A stretch of DNA of 64,000 nucleotides from Cyanobium sp. FACHB-13342 (lineage in GTDB: Bacteria; Cyanobacteriota; Cyanobacteriia; PCC-6307; Cyanobiaceae). The notes under the pieces were generated by a model, which did not search any database, was not told where the DNA came from, and saw only the letters and a list, made by a program, of their open reading frames with translations. Of this stretch, positions 1 through 29,671 are shown in pieces. The position numbers were made by a program, and so were the translations under genes. How positions within the stretch are numbered: position 1 is the first letter of the stretch; every line of letters starts with the position of its first letter. The stretch spans positions 186,001 through 250,000 of the forward strand of contig NZ_JACJRT010000014.1 of assembly GCF_014697415.1 (NCBI RefSeq). Direction: 5' to 3'.

Positions 1-476
1 GCCTCGACTGGATCCCCTGTCGCAGCACCGTGCTGCCCCAGCTGCGCCGGGCCATGGGCAGCGCCCTCGGGGTTGCCCCTCTGCCGGATGGGGAGGGTCA
101 CCGGGCCAGCCCGATCAACCGGCTGCGGGTGCTGGCCCTCGGCCGCAGCTCCAGCGCAGAGGGGCGGCGCCGCGCCCTGGCCTTCAGCTCTTACACCGTC
201 AATCCGCTCACCCAGCGCAGCATCACCCTGGGATCCCAGACGGTGCTGCCGGCCAACCGCTTCGTCACCGTGCCCGTGCAGAGCTCCCAGGTGCTGGCCG
301 CCATGGTGGCCGCCTCCAACCAGGGCCTTCAGAGCAACAGCCTGGTGACCCTGGTGCACTCCAATGACCCCCGCATTCCCCGCTTGCAGACCCTGCTGAC
401 GGAGTTGGTGTTCGGGGAGCGCAGCCCCGAGGGCGCCACCACCGAGCTGGTCCAGATCCTGCAGACCCGCCCATGA
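1..476 (+). CDS. Solute-binding protein, C-terminal part (gene runs off left edge)
   Basis: The frame is open from base 3, so this is the last ~157 residues of a longer protein. The visible start (LDWIPCRSTVLPQLRRAM) aligns residue by residue with [18 protein letters not shown] inside the complete solute-binding lipoprotein at 27864-29108. The ends also match (LVFGERSPEGATTEL against [15 protein letters not shown]). It is therefore a paralogue of that protein: a periplasmic binding protein of the extracellular solute-binding family 1 type. The ligand is not evident. Its stop overlaps the start of the MscS gene by 4 bp (ATGA), the same junction as in the second locus, which suggests translational coupling and a shared role. 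Signal peptide and N-lobe lie outside the window. Confidence 0.75.
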   Translation, partial: LDWIPCRSTVLPQLRRAMGSALGVAPLPDGEGHRASPINRLRVLALGRSSSAEGRRRALAFSSYTVNPLTQRSITLGSQTVLPANRFVTVPVQSSQVLAAMVAASNQGLQSNSLVTLVHSNDPRIPRLQTLLTELVFGERSPEGATTELVQILQTRP

Positions 477-1729
477 AAGAGCTGCTGCTGGAAATCTTCG
501 GCTGGCTGGGCTACCTGGAACGGCCCCTGGTGCTGGTGCAGCTGGGCCTGGTGATCGCCGTGGTGCTGCTCACCCGACAAGCCCAGCACCGACACTGGCT
601 ACCAGCACTGCCGCTGCTCGCCTATCCGCCCCTAGGCCTGTTGGTCCTGGGCCTGGGCTGCCTGGCCCTGGCTGGCCTGGGCTTGCCCCAGCGGCTGGCA
701 AGCCTGCTGGGGCTGCTATGGCTGGGCTGGTATGGCATCAGCCTGCTGCACCAGCCCCTGGCCCGCTGGCTGCCAGCGCAGCAGCTGCATGAACTGGAAG
801 CGCGGCTGCTGCGGCCCGCCTACCTGGTGGCCGCTGCCCTGCTGCTGATCGGGGAGGTCGACAACGTCAACGACCTCGCCGTGATCCGACTGGGAGAGCT
901 GCTGGGAGTGTCGATGAGCTTCGGCAAGTTGTCTAACGCCCTGGTGGTGGTCTACCTGGTGCTGGTGGGCTGCGGACCCCCGGCGGCCGGCGTGGCCTGG
1001 CTGATCCAGCGCAGCCTGGGGCTGAGCGACGGCAGCCGCAAGGCCATGGAACTGATGCTTCGCTACCTGGTGGTGGGGCTCGGTCTGGTGGGCGTCGCCA
1101 TGCACCTGGGCATCAACAGCACCGCCCTGATCGCCGTGGCTGGCGGCCTCTCGGTGGGCTTGGGCTTTGGCATCAAGGAGGTGTTCTCCAACTTTGTGAG
1201 CGGCCTCTGGCTGCTGTTTGAGGGGTCCGTGCGGCCCGGCGAAGTGCTGATGCTGGATGGCGATCCCTGTGAGGTGCGCCGGCTCGGCCTGCGGGCCACC
1301 CTGCTCTGGCGCAGCCGCGACAACGCCGAACTGCTGATCCCCAATCAGATGTTCTTCACCGCACCAGCCACCTCCTACACCGCCAGCGACCGCATGCGCC
1401 GCAGCCAGGTGAGCGTGGGAGCGGCCTACCACCACGATCCCGCCGCCGTGATCGCCCTGCTGGAGGCCACCGCGCTGGAGGTGCCAGGGGTGCTGCACAC
1501 TCCAGCCCCCAAAGCCCTGTTGCTCGACTACGGCGATTCCGCCATCCACTACGCCCTGCGCTTCTGGATTGCCAATCCGCTGGACAACGTCGGGATCTGC
1601 AGCGACGTGAACCAGGCGATCTGGCAGGCCTTCCGGCGAGAGGGCATCGAGATTCCATTCCCGCAACAGGTGCAGTACGAGATGGCGTGGCCCCCCGAAA
1701 ACCACCAGAGCATCCAACCCCATCGGTGA
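473..1729 (+). CDS. MscS-family mechanosensitive ion channel
   Basis: A 418-residue membrane protein with about six hydrophobic segments in the first 230 residues, then the MscS pore-helix and beta-domain signature (GLGFGIKEVFSNFVSGLWLL, residues ~228-247; VRPGE; RSRDNAELLIPNQ). It is longer than E. coli MscS because of the extra N-terminal membrane segments. MscS-family channels sit in the inner membrane and release osmolytes under membrane tension. It is a close paralogue of the MscS at 26638-27867, matching over most of the C-terminal 200 residues. The start overlaps the stop of the upstream solute-binding gene by 4 bp. Coupling to a binding protein suggests ligand-gated or ligand-associated function, but that is inference. 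Confidence 0.9.
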   Translation: MKELLLEIFGWLGYLERPLVLVQLGLVIAVVLLTRQAQHRHWLPALPLLAYPPLGLLVLGLGCLALAGLGLPQRLASLLGLLWLGWYGISLLHQPLARWLPAQQLHELEARLLRPAYLVAAALLLIGEVDNVNDLAVIRLGELLGVSMSFGKLSNALVVVYLVLVGCGPPAAGVAWLIQRSLGLSDGSRKAMELMLRYLVVGLGLVGVAMHLGINSTALIAVAGGLSVGLGFGIKEVFSNFVSGLWLLFEGSVRPGEVLMLDGDPCEVRRLGLRATLLWRSRDNAELLIPNQMFFTAPATSYTASDRMRRSQVSVGAAYHHDPAAVIALLEATALEVPGVLHTPAPKALLLDYGDSAIHYALRFWIANPLDNVGICSDVNQAIWQAFRREGIEIPFPQQVQYEMAWPPENHQSIQPHR

Positions 1730-1771: not shown

Positions 1772-2590
1772 TCAAACCTGATGGGCTTTCAACCGAGAGA
1801 CGGTTTTTTCAAGCAACTCGATCGAAACATCTTCGGCTGAGTCCACATCGGAATGGCCGAAAGGATTGTCGATATCGTCGATCAAACGCAACAGCAAGAT
1901 CACAATGAAAGAAATTACCGCCAAAAAGAAAACTGACTCAGCAAGATTCTCAGCGCGCGCCATCACCAGACCGGCAAACAGCAACACCGCAGCAATATCC
2001 GCCATCCAGTACACCAGCGGCACAAACGTGGTGTCGCGAATGGTCTGCACCCGGTTCACCTTGAGCAGAATGGTGGCCATGTCCTGCATGAGTCGCCCCC
2101 GCAGGGTGGAGGCATCACCCTTGAACTGCACCGCAGCAAGCACCACCTCGCGGTGCAACTGCTCATGGCAAAGCAGGATTTGATCGGTACTGATCCGCTC
2201 CTTCAACCAATCCAGCAGGGAACGGCCCAAACCCGCCACAGCCTCAATCGCTGGCGCAACACGGGCCTCCGGGTGATAGGCCCGAATCGCCTGGATCTCA
2301 AGCGTCAAGGACTGCAGGGCTGTGGCCAATTCACCGGGAATCTTCTCGCTTTCCTTGAAATCCGTGAGCACGCCGCTCAACAGAAAGCCCAGCAGAAAAA
2401 CGGTCGAGGCGACCATCGCCGAAAACAGCTGGTTGACGCTGATCCGCTCCAAACCCAGGGCATGCACCGCCACTTTGATGGCGCAGAGCACAAGCACCTG
2501 GAGAAACACGCCACGGATTTTTCTCAGACGACGCCGCCGCGCGGGTGGCCTGCCGGGCTGAGAAATGCTGGATGCCCTCGGACCGGTCAT
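1772..2590 (-). CDS. Membrane protein with paired TM segments, DUF4239/bestrophin-like architecture
   Basis: About 272 residues from an ATG at 2590; an alternative ATG at 2632 would add 14. Two hydrophobic stretches come early (VFLQVLVLCAIKVAV; FSAMVASTVFLLGFLL), followed by a ~110-residue soluble helical region, then two more TM helices and a short tail (RLIDDIDNPFGHSD). This TM-TM / soluble / TM-TM plan with an acidic DNPF motif after the last helix resembles DUF4239 'bestrophin-like' proteins, but the assignment is weak and no function can be claimed. It converges on the MscS gene with only 42 bp between the stops. It is less GC-rich than its neighbours. Confidence 0.55.
   Translation of the reverse strand: MTGPRASSISQPGRPPARRRRLRKIRGVFLQVLVLCAIKVAVHALGLERISVNQLFSAMVASTVFLLGFLLSGVLTDFKESEKIPGELATALQSLTLEIQAIRAYHPEARVAPAIEAVAGLGRSLLDWLKERISTDQILLCHEQLHREVVLAAVQFKGDASTLRGRLMQDMATILLKVNRVQTIRDTTFVPLVYWMADIAAVLLFAGLVMARAENLAESVFFLAVISFIVILLLRLIDDIDNPFGHSDVDSAEDVSIELLEKTVSRLKAHQV
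1791..1809 (+). terminator. Possible intrinsic terminator of the mscS transcript
   Basis: A 5-bp stem (AACCG / CGGTT) with an AGAGA loop runs straight into a run of six T (1804-1809) on the + strand, about 60 bp after the MscS stop. It lies inside the last codons of the converging gene. The stem is short, so confidence is low. Confidence 0.35.
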
Positions 2591-2731
2591 CGAAGGAGCA
2601 GTGTTCAAACGATGGCCGATCAATCGACCCATTCTGGCGATTTGAGCAGGCCGAAGCTGGTGTTCCAGAACACAAACGGGACGCTGACAGCGGCCTGGAG
2701 ATCTAGGGTTGTTTGTTGGTCATCTTTCCCC

Positions 2732-22374: not shown

Positions 22375-25300
22375 TTAGACCAAGTCAGATCCAATCAGTT
22401 GGGTGACCATCTTCACCTTCCCACCCCAATCGAACTGCTGCTCGGTGAAATCAACTAGGCCGTCTTTGTCCGAATCCAGAGTGCTAAGGCGATGGTCTGC
22501 CAAGAAGGTTTGATAGCTGGAACCAAGAGCCTTGGTGAAGCTATCCACCGTGACACCAGTGGTGTAGGTAGCCGTTGAACCCGAATGGGCGTAACTTGAC
22601 ATGAAATAGAGATCGCTGTCGACGCCCACCGAATCCTGCATTCCCGTGACTTTAGTATCGAGATCAATAACAGTCTTTGAGGTAACAGCTTCTGAACCCT
22701 TCCGCAGACCAGCTTTAAGTAGAGCAGCATTCCCACCGTAGCCACCAATCAACTTGTCAAACCCATCTTTATCGAGGATTCCATTAAAAGCGCGAGCATT
22801 CTTAAACTCGTTGTCGCCATAGGCAGTGGACCCTCCAATTATATCATCCGTCAAAACATCATTATCATCAATGTAGCTGACCTCAAAGGACAGAGCCTCA
22901 AGGTCGTCGACAATCTTCACTGTCCCGAGCATGGCATCGAGCCCTCCCGAGCCATCGGGTGCAGCAGAGACGCCGCTATAATACAGCGGATTTAAATCAA
23001 ATTCAAGCTTGAAGACAAAATAGATTAGAGAATCCGGATCCTGATTAAAGCCAGCCCAAGATTCGCTCTGAATGGTGATTTTCCCCGTGGCAGAGTCATA
23101 CGAGAAATCCCCCGCACCCAATACAAGGGGGTCGCCCTCATAAACCAATCCACCAAAGGCGTCATAGCTAACGGACTGATACACAGAAATGGAAGAACCA
23201 TCACGCAGCTGGAAGCCTCCGAGCTTGGATGCCAATTCCGGGAGATCTACAATAAAATCGCGATCGATCGCACTGTCGACAGCAACACCCAAAGCGAAGT
23301 TACCGCTATTGGTGGCAGACAGCTTGTACTTCATCGTACCGTCAGCGGCCAAGAACGGCGTCCACACCAGGCGGAACTGCTGGCCAGGATCCGCACTAGA
23401 GAAGTCGATCTGATCAAGATCACCATTGCCGAAGCGAACGGGGTCCATGACGCTGAACTCATAGGCGTCGTAGGTGACGAAAGCGCCTTCGCTATCGGTA
23501 GCGGTTACAGCAACACGATAGAAGCCAGATTCCTTGAATGAAATAACACCATTAATAATCTGATATTGAGCAGAAGAAACGGCTGATCCACTAAAGTTAG
23601 TGACGGAGTACGTATAAACAAGAGGCTCGCTACCCTGGTCGACATCATCAAATGCCAAATCTCCAAAGAGGTTAAAAGAAACATTCTTGAGGAGGGCGAT
23701 AGTTGAATCAAGGGGCTCGACATCAACTACTGGGCCATCGTTGGTGCCGAGGATCGAGACCGTGATGACTTTGCTGGTGCCGTCTGCGGTGGCGACGGTG
23801 ATGGAGTCGGTGTAGGTCGTGCCGTCAACGAATTCGTTGTGGGCGGAGTCGGCGGTGTAGGTCCAAGCGCCAGCGGTGGTGATGGAGAACTTGCCGAAGC
23901 CGTTGCTGCCGGCGACGTCGGTCTGGGCGACGAAGGCAGCGGAACTGTCGACGTCGGTGGCCGACAGGCTGCCGCTGGTGCTGATGGCGGCGGCGGTGTC
24001 ACCTTCTGTCAGCGAAGCGGTGCTGGTGCCGGTGATGACGGCGGCATCGTTGGTGCCGAGGATCGTGATCTCAATTTGGATCGGAGACTGACCCCCATTC
24101 CGCACACTAAACGAGTCCTTTCTCGTGGCACCAGCAGCTAACGATTGAACCGTAGAATTGTCGTTGTCTAGCGTATAAGTCCAACCTCCATCTGTCGCAA
24201 CAACTGCAGTACCGAGAGTCGCGCCCGAGCCTGACACCAAGGCCCAATTACCACCAGACGTCGTTCCATTGGCATCTCCAGAGGCAACTCCGAATGTATC
24301 CGTTGGCTGGAGAGAATTATTATCCCCCCCTAGCTCTGTGACATTACCAGAGGTATCTCCAGAAATGGCCCCGAAGCTGTATGTGTAGTTGAATGTAGGA
24401 TCGCCAGTTAAGCCAGTTCCCGCCGTATCGAATTTGAACGCGGTTGCTCCAATGGTTGAATCACTGGCATTGTTAAAAGCAGCCAGGTCGGTCGCCAAAA
24501 GAGTGGCCGCGAAAGCCCGTGTTCCCACGCCGCCGCTTCCGGAGTCAGTGACGACCGCAGTCACCGTCTTCGCCTGCCCCGTCCCCCAGGATATGGAGAG
24601 CGTGATTTCATATTTATTTGTTACTGGTCCTGATCCGGTTGATGTTAATGTGACATTGACAAGTCCTTCTACTAATAAATTTCCATTCGCTTGTATGGTA
24701 AAAGTGGGCGTCCCATTTATGCCATTGGATTTATAAGTATTGGTGGTTGCCGCGGCCGCCTCCACCCCAACCTCCACCCCATCAATCGTCAGGGTGGTGC
24801 TGTCGACATCCGCCTGAATCGCGGCCAGCTGCTCGGTGGTGAGATCGTTGCCCAGCACCAACTGAGCAAACAGCTCGCCTTCGTCGCCGAGGGTGTCGGT
24901 GCTGCCGTTGAGGCGCGTGTCGAGGGCGTGGCCGATCTCCTCGAGCAGCACCGCCAGGATCGCGGCGTTGTCGCCGCTGCTGAGCAGCATCTCGCTCAGA
25001 TAGGTCGTTTCCGTGCCGTCGGCACCCACCACCGCATAGGCACCCAGGGCACCGTTCATCTCCGTGGCGCTGGCCACGGCGAAATTCAGGCCCACAAGGC
25101 CCGTGCCGGACGCCAGCAGCTCGATCAGCGCGGGATCACTGCTGCCGAATACCTGTTGCAGCAGGGCTTCGAAGCCGGTCGGATCGGAGCTGGCGGAGGT
25201 GGCGAGATAGGCCCAGGCTTTCTGGAGCGACGCCTGCAGCTGCTCCTCGGGGGTGAAGGCGGTGTAGTCGCCATCGGCGTCCCACCAGCCGTTGTCCCCA

Positions 25301-25488
25301 AGCGTGATCGGGCCATCTGAAGGCGTATCCGTGCTCACCGGCTCGCTGGACGCGACCTCCACGGTCACGGTCGCCGTCGTGCCCTCAGCGTCCGTAAGCA
25401 CGACCGCATCGCTCTCAAGGCTGGCATCCAGCAGAACGGGCTCGGGAGCGAGCCCGGTGATCGGATCCAAAGCGAGGAGGTCGGCCAT
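22375..25488 (-). CDS. Large secreted protein with VCBS repeats and EF-hand; probable type I secretion cargo
   Basis: 1037 residues, acidic, without an N-terminal signal peptide and almost without Cys. An N-terminal ~240-residue region contains LLEEIGHALDTRLNGS, a form of a zinc-protease helix in which the first His is replaced (EEIGH, not HEIGH). VCBS-type repeats follow, each ending ILGTNDA/ILGTNDG (~390-600), then cadherin-like segments. Near the C-terminus is a canonical EF-hand loop (DSDKDGLVDFTE). No RTX nonapeptide array is visible. The last residues (MVTQLIGSDLV) may be the export signal. Base composition is patchy: GC-rich blocks alternate with A/T-rich ones. Function is unknown; surface or adhesive roles are typical of such proteins. 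Confidence 0.85.
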   Translation of the reverse strand: MADLLALDPITGLAPEPVLLDASLESDAVVLTDAEGTTATVTVEVASSEPVSTDTPSDGPITLGDNGWWDADGDYTAFTPEEQLQASLQKAWAYLATSASSDPTGFEALLQQVFGSSDPALIELLASGTGLVGLNFAVASATEMNGALGAYAVVGADGTETTYLSEMLLSSGDNAAILAVLLEEIGHALDTRLNGSTDTLGDEGELFAQLVLGNDLTTEQLAAIQADVDSTTLTIDGVEVGVEAAAATTNTYKSNGINGTPTFTIQANGNLLVEGLVNVTLTSTGSGPVTNKYEITLSISWGTGQAKTVTAVVTDSGSGGVGTRAFAATLLATDLAAFNNASDSTIGATAFKFDTAGTGLTGDPTFNYTYSFGAISGDTSGNVTELGGDNNSLQPTDTFGVASGDANGTTSGGNWALVSGSGATLGTAVVATDGGWTYTLDNDNSTVQSLAAGATRKDSFSVRNGGQSPIQIEITILGTNDAAVITGTSTASLTEGDTAAAISTSGSLSATDVDSSAAFVAQTDVAGSNGFGKFSITTAGAWTYTADSAHNEFVDGTTYTDSITVATADGTSKVITVSILGTNDGPVVDVEPLDSTIALLKNVSFNLFGDLAFDDVDQGSEPLVYTYSVTNFSGSAVSSAQYQIINGVISFKESGFYRVAVTATDSEGAFVTYDAYEFSVMDPVRFGNGDLDQIDFSSADPGQQFRLVWTPFLAADGTMKYKLSATNSGNFALGVAVDSAIDRDFIVDLPELASKLGGFQLRDGSSISVYQSVSYDAFGGLVYEGDPLVLGAGDFSYDSATGKITIQSESWAGFNQDPDSLIYFVFKLEFDLNPLYYSGVSAAPDGSGGLDAMLGTVKIVDDLEALSFEVSYIDDNDVLTDDIIGGSTAYGDNEFKNARAFNGILDKDGFDKLIGGYGGNAALLKAGLRKGSEAVTSKTVIDLDTKVTGMQDSVGVDSDLYFMSSYAHSGSTATYTTGVTVDSFTKALGSSYQTFLADHRLSTLDSDKDGLVDFTEQQFDWGGKVKMVTQLIGSDLV
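23736..24065. repeat. Direct repeat bounding one VCBS unit
   Basis: A 21-bp sequence encoding the ILGTND turn occurs at 23736-23756 and again, identically, at 24045-24065, 309 bp (103 codons) apart. This is the period of the VCBS module. The DNA between is much more GC-rich than that on either side, consistent with a repeat unit spread by recombination. Confidence 0.75.
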
Positions 25489-26637: not shown

Positions 26638-27867
26638 TCAGGGGTCGCTGGCCTGGGTGAGCACCCGCTGGGGGAAGGGAAACTCGATGCCCCGCTCCTG
26701 GAAGGCATGCCAGATCGCCCGCCGCATCTCGCTGCTGATGTCGCTATTGCGCATCGGATTGGCGATCCAGAAGCGCAGGCCGTAGTCGATCGACGACTCG
26801 CCGTACTGCAGCAACAGGGCCTTGGGAGCCGGCTCCGCCAGCACCCGCGGATGGGCCCGGGCCACCTGCTCCAGCAGGGCGATCACCGCATCGGGGTCGT
26901 GGCGGTAGGCCGCCCCCACCAGCACCTCGCTGCGGCGCATGCGGTCGCTGCCGGTGTAGGTGGTGGTGGTGTCGGTGAAAAAGATCTGGTTGGGCACCAC
27001 CAGCTCCACGTTGTCGCGGCTGCGCCAGAGGGTGGCGGCCCGCAGGCCGAGGCGCCGCACCTCCACCGGATCGCCCTGAAACAGCAGGATCTCCCCCGGC
27101 CGCACCGATCCCTCGAACAGCAGCCAGAGGCCACTCACGAAGTTGGAGAACACCTCCTTGATGCCGAAGCCCAGGCCCACCGACAACCCTCCGGCAATGG
27201 CCGCCACCGCCGTGCCGTTCAGCCCGATCTGGTTGCCCAGCCAGAGCACTCCCACACCGATCAGCACGTAGCGCAGGATCAACTCGAACACCTTGCGGTT
27301 GGCGGCCGTCATGCCCATCAGCCGCTCCAGCACCGCCCCGAGCACCAGCACCGGCAGCTCCGAGAGCACCACCAGGAAGTAGGGAAGAGTCAGCAGCAGC
27401 ACGGTGCCGCCCAGGGTGAGCTGCTCGCCGAACAGCTCCAGCAGGGGAAGGGAGGCCACCGCGCCGAGGCCATCGAGCCGCTCCACCAGCGCCAGCAGCA
27501 CCAGCACCACAAACAGCGGCCGCACCGCCCGCACCCAGTAGGCCTCCACTGCCGCCGCTGGGTGGAACCGCCGCAACACCAGCCGCAACCCATCGAGAAC
27601 CGTCCAGACCGCCACCAGCTGCAGCACCAGCAGCAGCAGACCCGCCGGCAGGCGCGCCAGGCCAAAGCCCACGCAGGCCAGCTGCAGCGCCGCGATCACC
27701 GCCAGCTCGCCCGCCACCCGCAGCCAGCTGCCCGCCGAGGGGCGCCAGCGCAGCCGCCAGGCCCGATGGGCCACCAGCAGGCCCAGAGCCACACCCACCT
27801 GCAGCAGCACCGAGCCGCGCAGCAGCAAGCCGCTCCAACCGGAAATCAGATAGAGGAGATCGTTCAT
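26638..27867 (-). CDS. MscS-family mechanosensitive ion channel (second copy)
   Basis: 409 residues; about six hydrophobic segments, then the same pore block as the first copy (GLGFGIKEVFSNFVSGLWLL), RSRDNVELVVPNQIFF, DRMRRSEVLVGAAYRHDP and FWIANPMRNSDISSEM. It matches the MscS at 473-1729 over the whole C-terminal half, with the N-terminal membrane part more diverged. It is the last gene of a three-gene operon after ecotin and a solute-binding lipoprotein; its start overlaps the latter's stop by 4 bp (ATGA), exactly as in the first locus. Confidence 0.9.
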   Translation of the reverse strand: MNDLLYLISGWSGLLLRGSVLLQVGVALGLLVAHRAWRLRWRPSAGSWLRVAGELAVIAALQLACVGFGLARLPAGLLLLVLQLVAVWTVLDGLRLVLRRFHPAAAVEAYWVRAVRPLFVVLVLLALVERLDGLGAVASLPLLELFGEQLTLGGTVLLLTLPYFLVVLSELPVLVLGAVLERLMGMTAANRKVFELILRYVLIGVGVLWLGNQIGLNGTAVAAIAGGLSVGLGFGIKEVFSNFVSGLWLLFEGSVRPGEILLFQGDPVEVRRLGLRAATLWRSRDNVELVVPNQIFFTDTTTTYTGSDRMRRSEVLVGAAYRHDPDAVIALLEQVARAHPRVLAEPAPKALLLQYGESSIDYGLRFWIANPMRNSDISSEMRRAIWHAFQERGIEFPFPQRVLTQASDP

Positions 27868-29108
27868 CGGCCCGCCAGCGCCTCCATCGCCGCCAGCACC
27901 TGCTCCGCGCTGCGCTCGCCGTACACGGCCTCCTTCAGCAGCTGGCTGAGGGGATCGGCCAGCTCACGCATGCGCACGCCCTCCTGAAAGGTGAGCACGA
28001 GGGAATCCCGGAGGCTCCCCTCCATCGCCGCCAGCTCCGGCGCCTCCTTCACCGGCACCACCACGTTCTGGTTCACCGGCATGTTGCCCTCGGCGCGCAC
28101 CATCAGGTTGTTCTGGCTGAAGTCGTTGAGGGCAAACAGGGCAAAGCGCTCAGCCACCCGGCGCTGGCTCGGCGTGGAGTCGCGGCCGAAGCTCAGCACC
28201 AGCACATTGGCCAGCGGACGGCTCGCCTGGCCGTTCACCCCCCGCGGCAGCACCGACACCGCCAGGTGGGTGCCCAGCGACTTGCGCAGCCGGCCGATGG
28301 CGGTGGCGTTGCAGCTGATCCAGTCGAGCTGGCCCCGCTCGAGCCGCTGCACCAGCTGGTCGCCATCGTCCACAAACACCAGGCTGGGGATCACGTTTGA
28401 GCGGTAGAGCCAGCGCAACCAGGCCAGCACCCGGCCCCGGGCCGCCGGATCCAGCCGCGGCGCCCCCCCAGCCACCGTCTTCGGATCAAACAGATGCAGC
28501 AGCGGGGGCTGGGCCCCAAAACCGGTGGCGGTCCAGAGCAGTTCATGGAGCTCCAGCGACAGGCCCATGCGCCGGCCCGCAGCGGCCTGGGCCACCAACT
28601 GCTCGAGGCTGGCGGGGGGGCGCGACAGGCGCCGCCGGTCGTAGCAGGCCAGGCTCGGCTGCACCAGGAGCGGCAGGGCGGCGTAGCCCTGGCCCTGGCG
28701 AAAGGACGGCAAAAACTGAAGCCGCAGCGGCTCGAGCTGGGCCGCCCCCAGCTCCACCGGACTGGTGTAGCCGCGACGGGCCAGGTTGAACGCGGCCGGC
28801 ACCCGGGTGATCAGCAGATCCGGGCCGACGCCCAACGACGAGCGCTCGCTGACGTTCTGCAGCAGCTGCCCCTCCGGCACGTAGCGGAAATGCAGGTTGA
28901 CCCCGGGATTGACCCGCATGAAGTCGTGCACCATCTGGCCGGCCAGCTGCCTGAGGCTGGCGCTGGCCACCCGATCACCCCCGGCCCCGGGAGCGATCGT
29001 GATCTGCACGTTCTCCAGCGGCGCCACCGCCCCCCGGCAGCCCGCCAGGAGCAGGGAGAGGGCGAGCCCCACACCCGCCCAGGGAGCCATCCGACGCACA
29101 GGCGGCAT
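27864..29108 (-). CDS. Solute-binding lipoprotein paired with MscS channel
   Basis: 414 residues from the ATG at 29108 ([12 protein letters not shown]), five bases after the ecotin stop. The lipobox LLLAGC gives a lipid-anchored periplasmic protein. The body resembles extracellular solute-binding family 1: [69 protein letters not shown]. No ABC permease or ATPase lies nearby; the partner is the MscS channel. It is paralogous to the truncated gene at 1-476. An apparent upstream extension to 29651 runs through the ecotin gene in another frame and is rejected. Confidence 0.82.
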
Positions 29109-29113
29109 GGGCG

Positions 29114-29671
29114 TCAGAACAGGTTGGCCGGCCGCTCCTGGCTCTCGGCCTTCCACAGCCGCCAGCGCAGCTCCAGGGGGCGGGGAGCATCCACCACGAT
29201 CGGGCGGCTGGCGTTGTAGGGCACCACAAACGGCTTGCCCGCCATCGGCACGAAGGCCCGGCGGCGGGGCTGCTCCGGCGGACAGGCCATGCGGGTGGAG
29301 GCCAGGGCGCCCACATCCGTGACCCGGTAGATCACCGGCCCACCCTCCTGGGCAGGCTTCACGGGGCGGAGCTTGCCGCCAAACATCTGACGGTTGCAAT
29401 CCACCTGGGCCATCTGGCCCACGATCAGCTGCACCCGCCAGTCGGCCGGGTTGGACGACAGGGCGGGATCGACATTGGGCCGCAGCACCCCCGGCAGCTG
29501 GATCACCCAGCGGCGATCCCCCGGCGCCGGCTTGGGGTAGCCCGAGAGATCCAGCCGGGGAATGGCCCCCGCTTGCGGCACCGAGGCCGGCACCAGGGCC
29601 AGGGCCAGCGCCCCGCAGGCCAGCCCCAGCACGCGGGGGGAGCGGAGCCAAGGGCGCAGGCGCTGAACCAT
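29114..29671 (-). CDS. eco: Ecotin-family serine protease inhibitor
   Basis: 185 residues with an N-terminal hydrophobic export signal ([20 protein letters not shown]). The mature part matches ecotin block by block: [50 protein letters not shown]-like loop [26 protein letters not shown] and RWRLWKAE. The disulfide Cys pair (VDCN / MACP) is kept. The reactive-site residue that is Met84 in E. coli ecotin (STMMAC) is Arg here (STRMAC), predicting preference for trypsin-like proteases. Ecotin dimers act in the periplasm against foreign serine proteases. It heads the operon with the binding lipoprotein and MscS. Confidence 0.88.

Follow-up and report, generated by a model that had tools for sequence, protein, structure and literature searches.

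To our knowledge, little has been learned about the chemical gating of MscS-family channels beyond MscK, which depends on K+, and the MscS proteins gated by cyclic nucleotides. Of the described systems, Escherichia coli MscK (KefA), considered here together with MscM, comes closest to the channel of the present locus, being the best curated and structural match of its core. MscK opens in response to tension together with an external ligand, K+, and has a large N-terminal periplasmic domain of ~500 aa (PMC9653487). By contrast, the channel presented here has 418 rather than 1120 aa, probably seven rather than 11 transmembrane (TM) helices, and lacks a periplasmic domain; the sensor that it would need is instead encoded by a separate gene, whose product has a MalE fold. 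In concept, the nearest precedent, by analogy, is GluR0 of Synechocystis, a cyanobacterial channel that has a binding-protein-type ligand-binding domain and was shown to affect cell volume under KCl stress (PMC13099474). However, GluR0 is a single polypeptide with a K+ channel pore, whereas the module described here consists of two genes and combines an MscS pore with a MalE-type fold. The binding protein itself resembles those of ABC importers (MalE, SBP_bac_1, SBP_bac_8) in its fold over residues 46–429 and in its profile match to MalE, but differs in having two extra cysteines, an MscS neighbour and, in this genome, no permease of family PF00528 beside it. Finally, MscS-family genes of Synechococcus and Cyanobium have been noted, as clusters such as CK_00056919, in connection with salinity niches, and their distribution varies from habitat to habitat; the accessible parts of these papers mention no binding-protein partner (PMC9361551, PMC7522525).

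The initial annotation of this locus proposed that a solute-binding protein and an MscS-type channel form a conserved, perhaps undescribed, ligand-linked channel. The pair is conserved, as detailed below, and a link to a ligand is plausible. As to its novelty, among the open-access literature matches listed, no title or beginning of an abstract deals with the combination of a binding protein and an MscS channel, and the accessible parts of PMC8786288, PMC9361551, PMC9948718, PMC7522525, PMC12903740, PMC8670252 and PMC7771541 do not mention the pairing.

Three modules in one Cyanobium genome

The window, i.e. the whole stretch of 64,000 nucleotides that was analysed, spans positions 186001–250000 of contig C6 in a Cyanobium genome (G000) of 2.37 Mb and 99.4% completeness. 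It contains two modules (Table 1). At the left edge, a truncated binding-protein gene had been described as overlapping an MscS gene by ATGA, and the frames, order and overlap (473–476) are indeed as described, with the TGA of the former at 474–476 and the ATG of the latter at 473–475. Leftward reading on the window's own contig recovers the complete binding-protein gene (~185184–186476), which encodes 429 aa from the start codon used here, with more start codons upstream, and the lipobox looked for at its N-terminus is present (LGGC, last residue Cys41). Convergent with this module lies a gene for a membrane protein (window 1775–2632, minus strand) with a weak, below-cut-off match to Bestrophin (E 0.0002); its relatives are found in 5 of 89 related loci.

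Table 1. Genes of the two binding protein–channel modules in the window (positions from the first nucleotide of the window).
Feature	Position	Strand	Details
Binding-protein gene, module 1, 3' part	1..476	+	begins at G000:C6:185184 (~817 bases before the window) or at a start codon further upstream
MscS-family (MscK-type core) channel gene, module 1	473..1729	+	418 aa; PF00924, PF21082 and PF21088 above cut-off
MscS-family channel gene, module 2	26638..27867	-	409 aa; ATGA overlap with the binding-protein gene
Binding-protein (lipoprotein) gene, module 2	27864..29108	-	414 aa; lipobox LAGC; profile match

The second pair had been called paralogous to the first. Its gene order and 4-base overlap (27864–27867) are the same as in module 1, the binding proteins share 33% identity over 381 positions (E 2e-50), and the channels share 48% over 410 (E 2e-107), all of which agrees with paralogy. 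Module 2 is immediately preceded, on its own strand, by a gene for an ecotin-family protease inhibitor (29117–29671, minus strand; PF03974, E 1e-31), and frames resembling queE and queC flank the ecotin/module-2 region. The minus-strand gene at 22375–25488 encodes a large protein that contains a cadherin-like domain of the bacterial type (PF17803).

Both loci are thus real, but the genome holds three modules rather than the two reported at first. Module 3 (L008:6011–7370; C17 ~432010–433370) is located on contig C17 between glgB-like and hemE-like frames, where '-like' gene names, here and below, come from the reading of translated frames rather than from a database result. Its channel frame is intact, whereas its binding-protein gene, which has the lipobox LQGC, is frameshifted into two overlapping frames and is either a pseudogene or the product of an assembly error.

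Occurrence and anatomy of the pair

The module is not peculiar to this genome. Among 40 relatives, strong matches of the two families adjoin each other, the exceptions being a channel (G003) and a fragment of a binding protein (G009:C189), both lacking a partner. In 400 genomes of Cyanobiaceae, binding proteins (E ≤ 1e-15) were found in 169 and channels (E ≤ 1e-50) in 170, with either family represented in 19 of 59 genera. Both families occur in 165 genomes and neither in 226, while only four genomes have the binding protein without the channel and five the channel without the binding protein; a Fisher p-value for this co-occurrence is not to be taken literally, because the genomes are related. 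Eight of the nine one-family genomes are 62–85% complete, and the ninth (G227, 99% complete) has just a weak binding-protein match and no channel at E ≤ 1e-50. Among the carriers are Cyanobium, Vulcanococcus, Aphanothece and marine Synechococcus; one of the latter, WH7803, has two modules (L082, L135). Records titled Bifidobacterium breve (L084) and Rhodopirellula (L103) also carry picocyanobacterial modules and are probably mis-binned or mislabelled MAGs. Among the genomes listed, near-complete ones of 1.6–1.8 Mb are all devoid of the module, suggesting that it may mark a niche difference.

Adjacency was consistent from the side of either family. In 76 of 80 named loci retrieved by the channel alone, a binding-protein gene lies directly upstream, and in the other four (L094, L103, L125, L134) the locus begins no more than 235 bases before the matched channel. 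Conversely, in loci retrieved by the binding protein, a channel follows 63 of 64 distinct binding-protein genes scoring above 100 bits, and the remaining gene extends to the very end of its locus. In a survey of the phylum, 35 of 292 genomes were matched, and 19 of these come from five further families within the class; all 20 binding-protein genes of these 19 genomes are followed by a channel gene on the same strand. Three more distant matches from outside the class have no channel within ~10 kb, and one of the three (L174) lies, judging from its frames, in an ordinary operon of the order ATPase, binding protein, permease, permease. The pairing thus recurs in six families and several chromosomal contexts with constant order and strand, so that the opposite expectation, according to which relatives would usually stand beside ABC permeases and MscS adjacency would be confined to this genome, does not hold (76/80, 63/64 and 20/20 paired). 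Chance or genome-specific adjacency can be dismissed on the basis of the Cyanobiaceae, phylum and locus surveys. Spread on plasmids was likewise rejected, since tblastn with the binding protein of module 1 gave no match at E ≤ 1e-5 in 72,556 plasmid records.

The genes of all 125 distinct pairs are on one strand. For the 122 entries with a start codon (one channel was entered twice), the most common arrangement is the 4-base overlap (82 entries), followed by a 1-base overlap in six; the remaining spacings extend from 20 overlapping bases to a gap of 398, the extremes probably reflecting uncertain start codons. The surroundings vary: of 66 loci of at least 9 kb, 31 contain valS and 18 have none of the neighbour genes tested with seven valid queries. 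Pairwise distances of the binding proteins and channels are correlated (r=0.92 for 118 pairs, a value that includes shared species history), compared with r of at most 0.12 in 500 permutations (116-pair run). Paralogue matching is less open to shared ancestry. In seven genomes with two modules, 15 of 21 comparisons agree and six, all involving small differences, disagree; where both proteins differ by more than 0.1, agreement is complete (6/6), although these genomes are few and partly near-identical.

Fused frames, which would have been direct proof of a unit, number zero in the loci retrieved for the surveys, and a role in defence was rejected given that four proteins have no PADLOC match at E ≤ 0.001. 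The pair is not strictly obligate, because broken binding-protein genes are found beside intact channels, not only in module 3 but also in G186 (L167), where the gene is in three pieces, and in L124, where it is in two. G186 is a one-contig genome, and decay of the gene there is therefore probably real. The binding-protein gene of L103 is a single open frame and is not broken. Taken as a whole, the genomic comparisons provide good support for regarding the binding protein and the channel as a conserved functional unit.

Predicted structures of the two proteins

Pfam recognizes the binding proteins poorly: that of module 1 has no match at E ≤ 1, that of module 2 is matched at E 0.4 only, and SBP_bac_8 at E ≤ 0.001 is matched by 8 of 16 family members tested. 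The original identification of the left-edge gene as a binding protein finds no backing in Pfam; it is the profile, the predicted fold and the paralogue of module 3 that speak for it. Profile comparison with E. coli MalE gives a probability of 98.7% over 345 columns. The predicted model is good (pLDDT 85.3, pTM 0.81) and has the two-lobe MalE fold. Its best listed fold match is GacH (3jzj_A; Z 34.9, 354 aligned, rmsd 3.4), and Z values to MalE-fold proteins are ~33–35 among the matches listed (50 rows). The protein is thus predicted to be a lipoprotein with the maltose-binding-protein (MalE) fold. Signals for anchoring are common to most of the family, with the strict lipobox pattern in 94 of 116 binding proteins. 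By reading of the 22 others, 14 have a looser lipobox cysteine, one is cut off and seven have no cysteine; several of the seven (L093, L114, L164, L166, L171) have a hydrophobic N-terminal segment, which could serve as an anchor instead, so that anchoring seems to be kept by other means.

A mark of the family is a pair of cysteines, C175 and C279, which is present in 118 of 118 binding proteins (98 from Cyanobiaceae, 20 from outside) and in none of eight other cyanobacterial binding proteins (three further control loci gave no match and were dropped). The two residues likely form a disulfide, and by their sequences the module proteins constitute a separate subfamily marked by this pair.

The channel of module 1 matches all three MS_channel Pfam domains (TM2/3, beta and C-terminal) above cut-off; that of module 2 is slightly below the cut-off for the TM2/3 model, and that of module 3 has no C-terminal match. 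The best curated model for the module-1 channel is NCBIfam MscK, but with 148.7 bits over residues 177–398 only, versus a cut-off of 991 over the full length, it does not qualify as an MscK equivalog. MscK (7uw5) is also its best solved relative (profile E 1.2e-44; first fold match, E 1.6e-20), while in the VIA-align structural list chains of MscS and of MscK score alike, at Z ~15. The large N-terminal periplasmic domain of MscK is absent, as the protein has 418 aa and is hydrophobic from about residue 18. Membership in the cyclic-nucleotide-gated MscS (bCNG) type was considered and rejected, since Pfam at E ≤ 1 finds no C-terminal cyclic-nucleotide-binding domain in the three module channels of this genome. 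Across 118 aligned channels, hydropathy and charge are compatible with seven TM helices and an external N-terminus: the loop at 36–52 has 4.2 Lys+Arg per sequence, that at 65–76 has 0.4, and that at 125–152 is acidic. Because the loops were placed by a weak model (pLDDT 72.4, pTM 0.34), which is also too poor for docking, this topology is a probable one.

A proposed sensor in trans and its alternatives

The channel lacks a periplasmic domain of its own, its relative MscK requires an external ion in addition to tension (PMC9653487), and the neighbouring gene encodes a tethered solute-binding fold; the simplest reading is therefore that of a sensor acting in trans. We suggest, with a probability of about one half, that the two genes form one unit, in which the tethered MalE-fold protein most likely serves a 7-TM MscK-like channel as a periplasmic sensor or regulatory subunit. 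The binding protein would be exported and tethered to the periplasmic side of the inner membrane by its lipid or, in a minority of cases, apparently by the N-terminal hydrophobic segment, next to a channel that probably has seven TM helices and an MscK-type MscS core without the large periplasmic domain of MscK. It would bind an external, probably sugar-like, solute and its lobes would switch between open and closed states. This change, passed on through the N-terminal periplasmic helix or the 125–152 loop, would shift the tension needed to open the pore, and the release of ions and osmolytes would thereby depend on the solute outside. Physical contact, ligand class, gating direction and docking sites are here, like the topology, those that we infer for such an arrangement. 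A putative ligand-gated channel is plausible on these grounds. In its fullest form, a two-protein ligand-gated osmotic valve, with a MalE-type sensor gating the channel in trans and paralogous modules (three in this genome) reading different external solutes, the proposal is a tentative one. Glucosylglycerol is unlikely to be a general ligand, because T1B-Tous and N.Huapi 1H5, both freshwater strains judging from their names, carry the module.

The variation among paralogues bears directly on whether a ligand is bound at all. For the comparison of ligand sites we used Trp62–Arg66 and Glu111 of MalE, which we take to be suitable reference positions. In a profile alignment to MalE, the positions matching Trp62–Arg66 read NGD, RVP and QGP in the three modules, a pattern that fits either different ligands or the loss of a ligand. 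Should binding have been lost, the MalE-like fold would persist solely as a scaffold, a structural or regulatory subunit that is docked on the channel and sets the tension threshold or assembly of the latter. Full conservation in the binding-protein alignment (effective sequence number ~81) is confined to the cysteine pair and Pro residues, with Gly and Trp near-invariant, which would suit such a scaffold, as would the patchy SBP_bac_8 recognition noted above. However, the fold match covers both lobes, 82 of 98 family members retain a Gln at the position of Glu111, and the variability between paralogues is equally what different ligands would produce, so that we consider a ligand-free subunit unlikely.

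The regulatory reading must also be weighed against ordinary transport, in which an ABC binding protein would work with a permease encoded elsewhere and the channel would merely be co-transcribed for osmotic protection. The absence of a permease, on which the initial annotation had relied, holds for the vicinity of the modules (no PF00528 match within 20 kb of those of this genome, none anywhere on C6, and on C17 none closer to module 3 than ~23 kb), but not for the genome, in which a MalF-like permease stands alone on C17 (144692; L192:3438–4433) next to an aroB-like gene. An SBP_bac_1/8 protein likewise stands alone on C12 (21019; L193:2843–4186) next to an mreB-like frame. Since sugar-type ABC parts do stand alone here, the lack of a nearby permease is a weaker argument than it might seem, and the fold of the module proteins is, after all, that of ABC binding proteins. 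On the other hand, the canonical SBP_bac_1/8 protein could itself serve the lone permease, the module proteins fall into their own two-cysteine subfamily, and the next gene is of the same MscS subfamily in all but one of the 64 cases, that one having no downstream sequence. An importer with a bystander channel is accordingly rather improbable. Facilitated passage, with the captured solute handed to the channel pore acting as a permease, would be in line with an arrangement like that of a binding protein plus permease and with the membrane anchoring signals, but it is very improbable, because MscS pores are wide and weakly selective, so that delivery down a gradient would leak ions for little gain, and no sequence feature points that way.

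A widespread natural pairing of MscS channels with sugar-type binding proteins would provide a defined bacterial system for separating chemical from mechanical gating gene by gene. It might also help to explain the many MscS genes of Synechococcus and Cyanobium, and it would caution against labelling these binding proteins as genes of nutrient uptake. If the valve proposed above is real, the chemical context, in addition to tension, would govern when the cells release or retain osmolytes.
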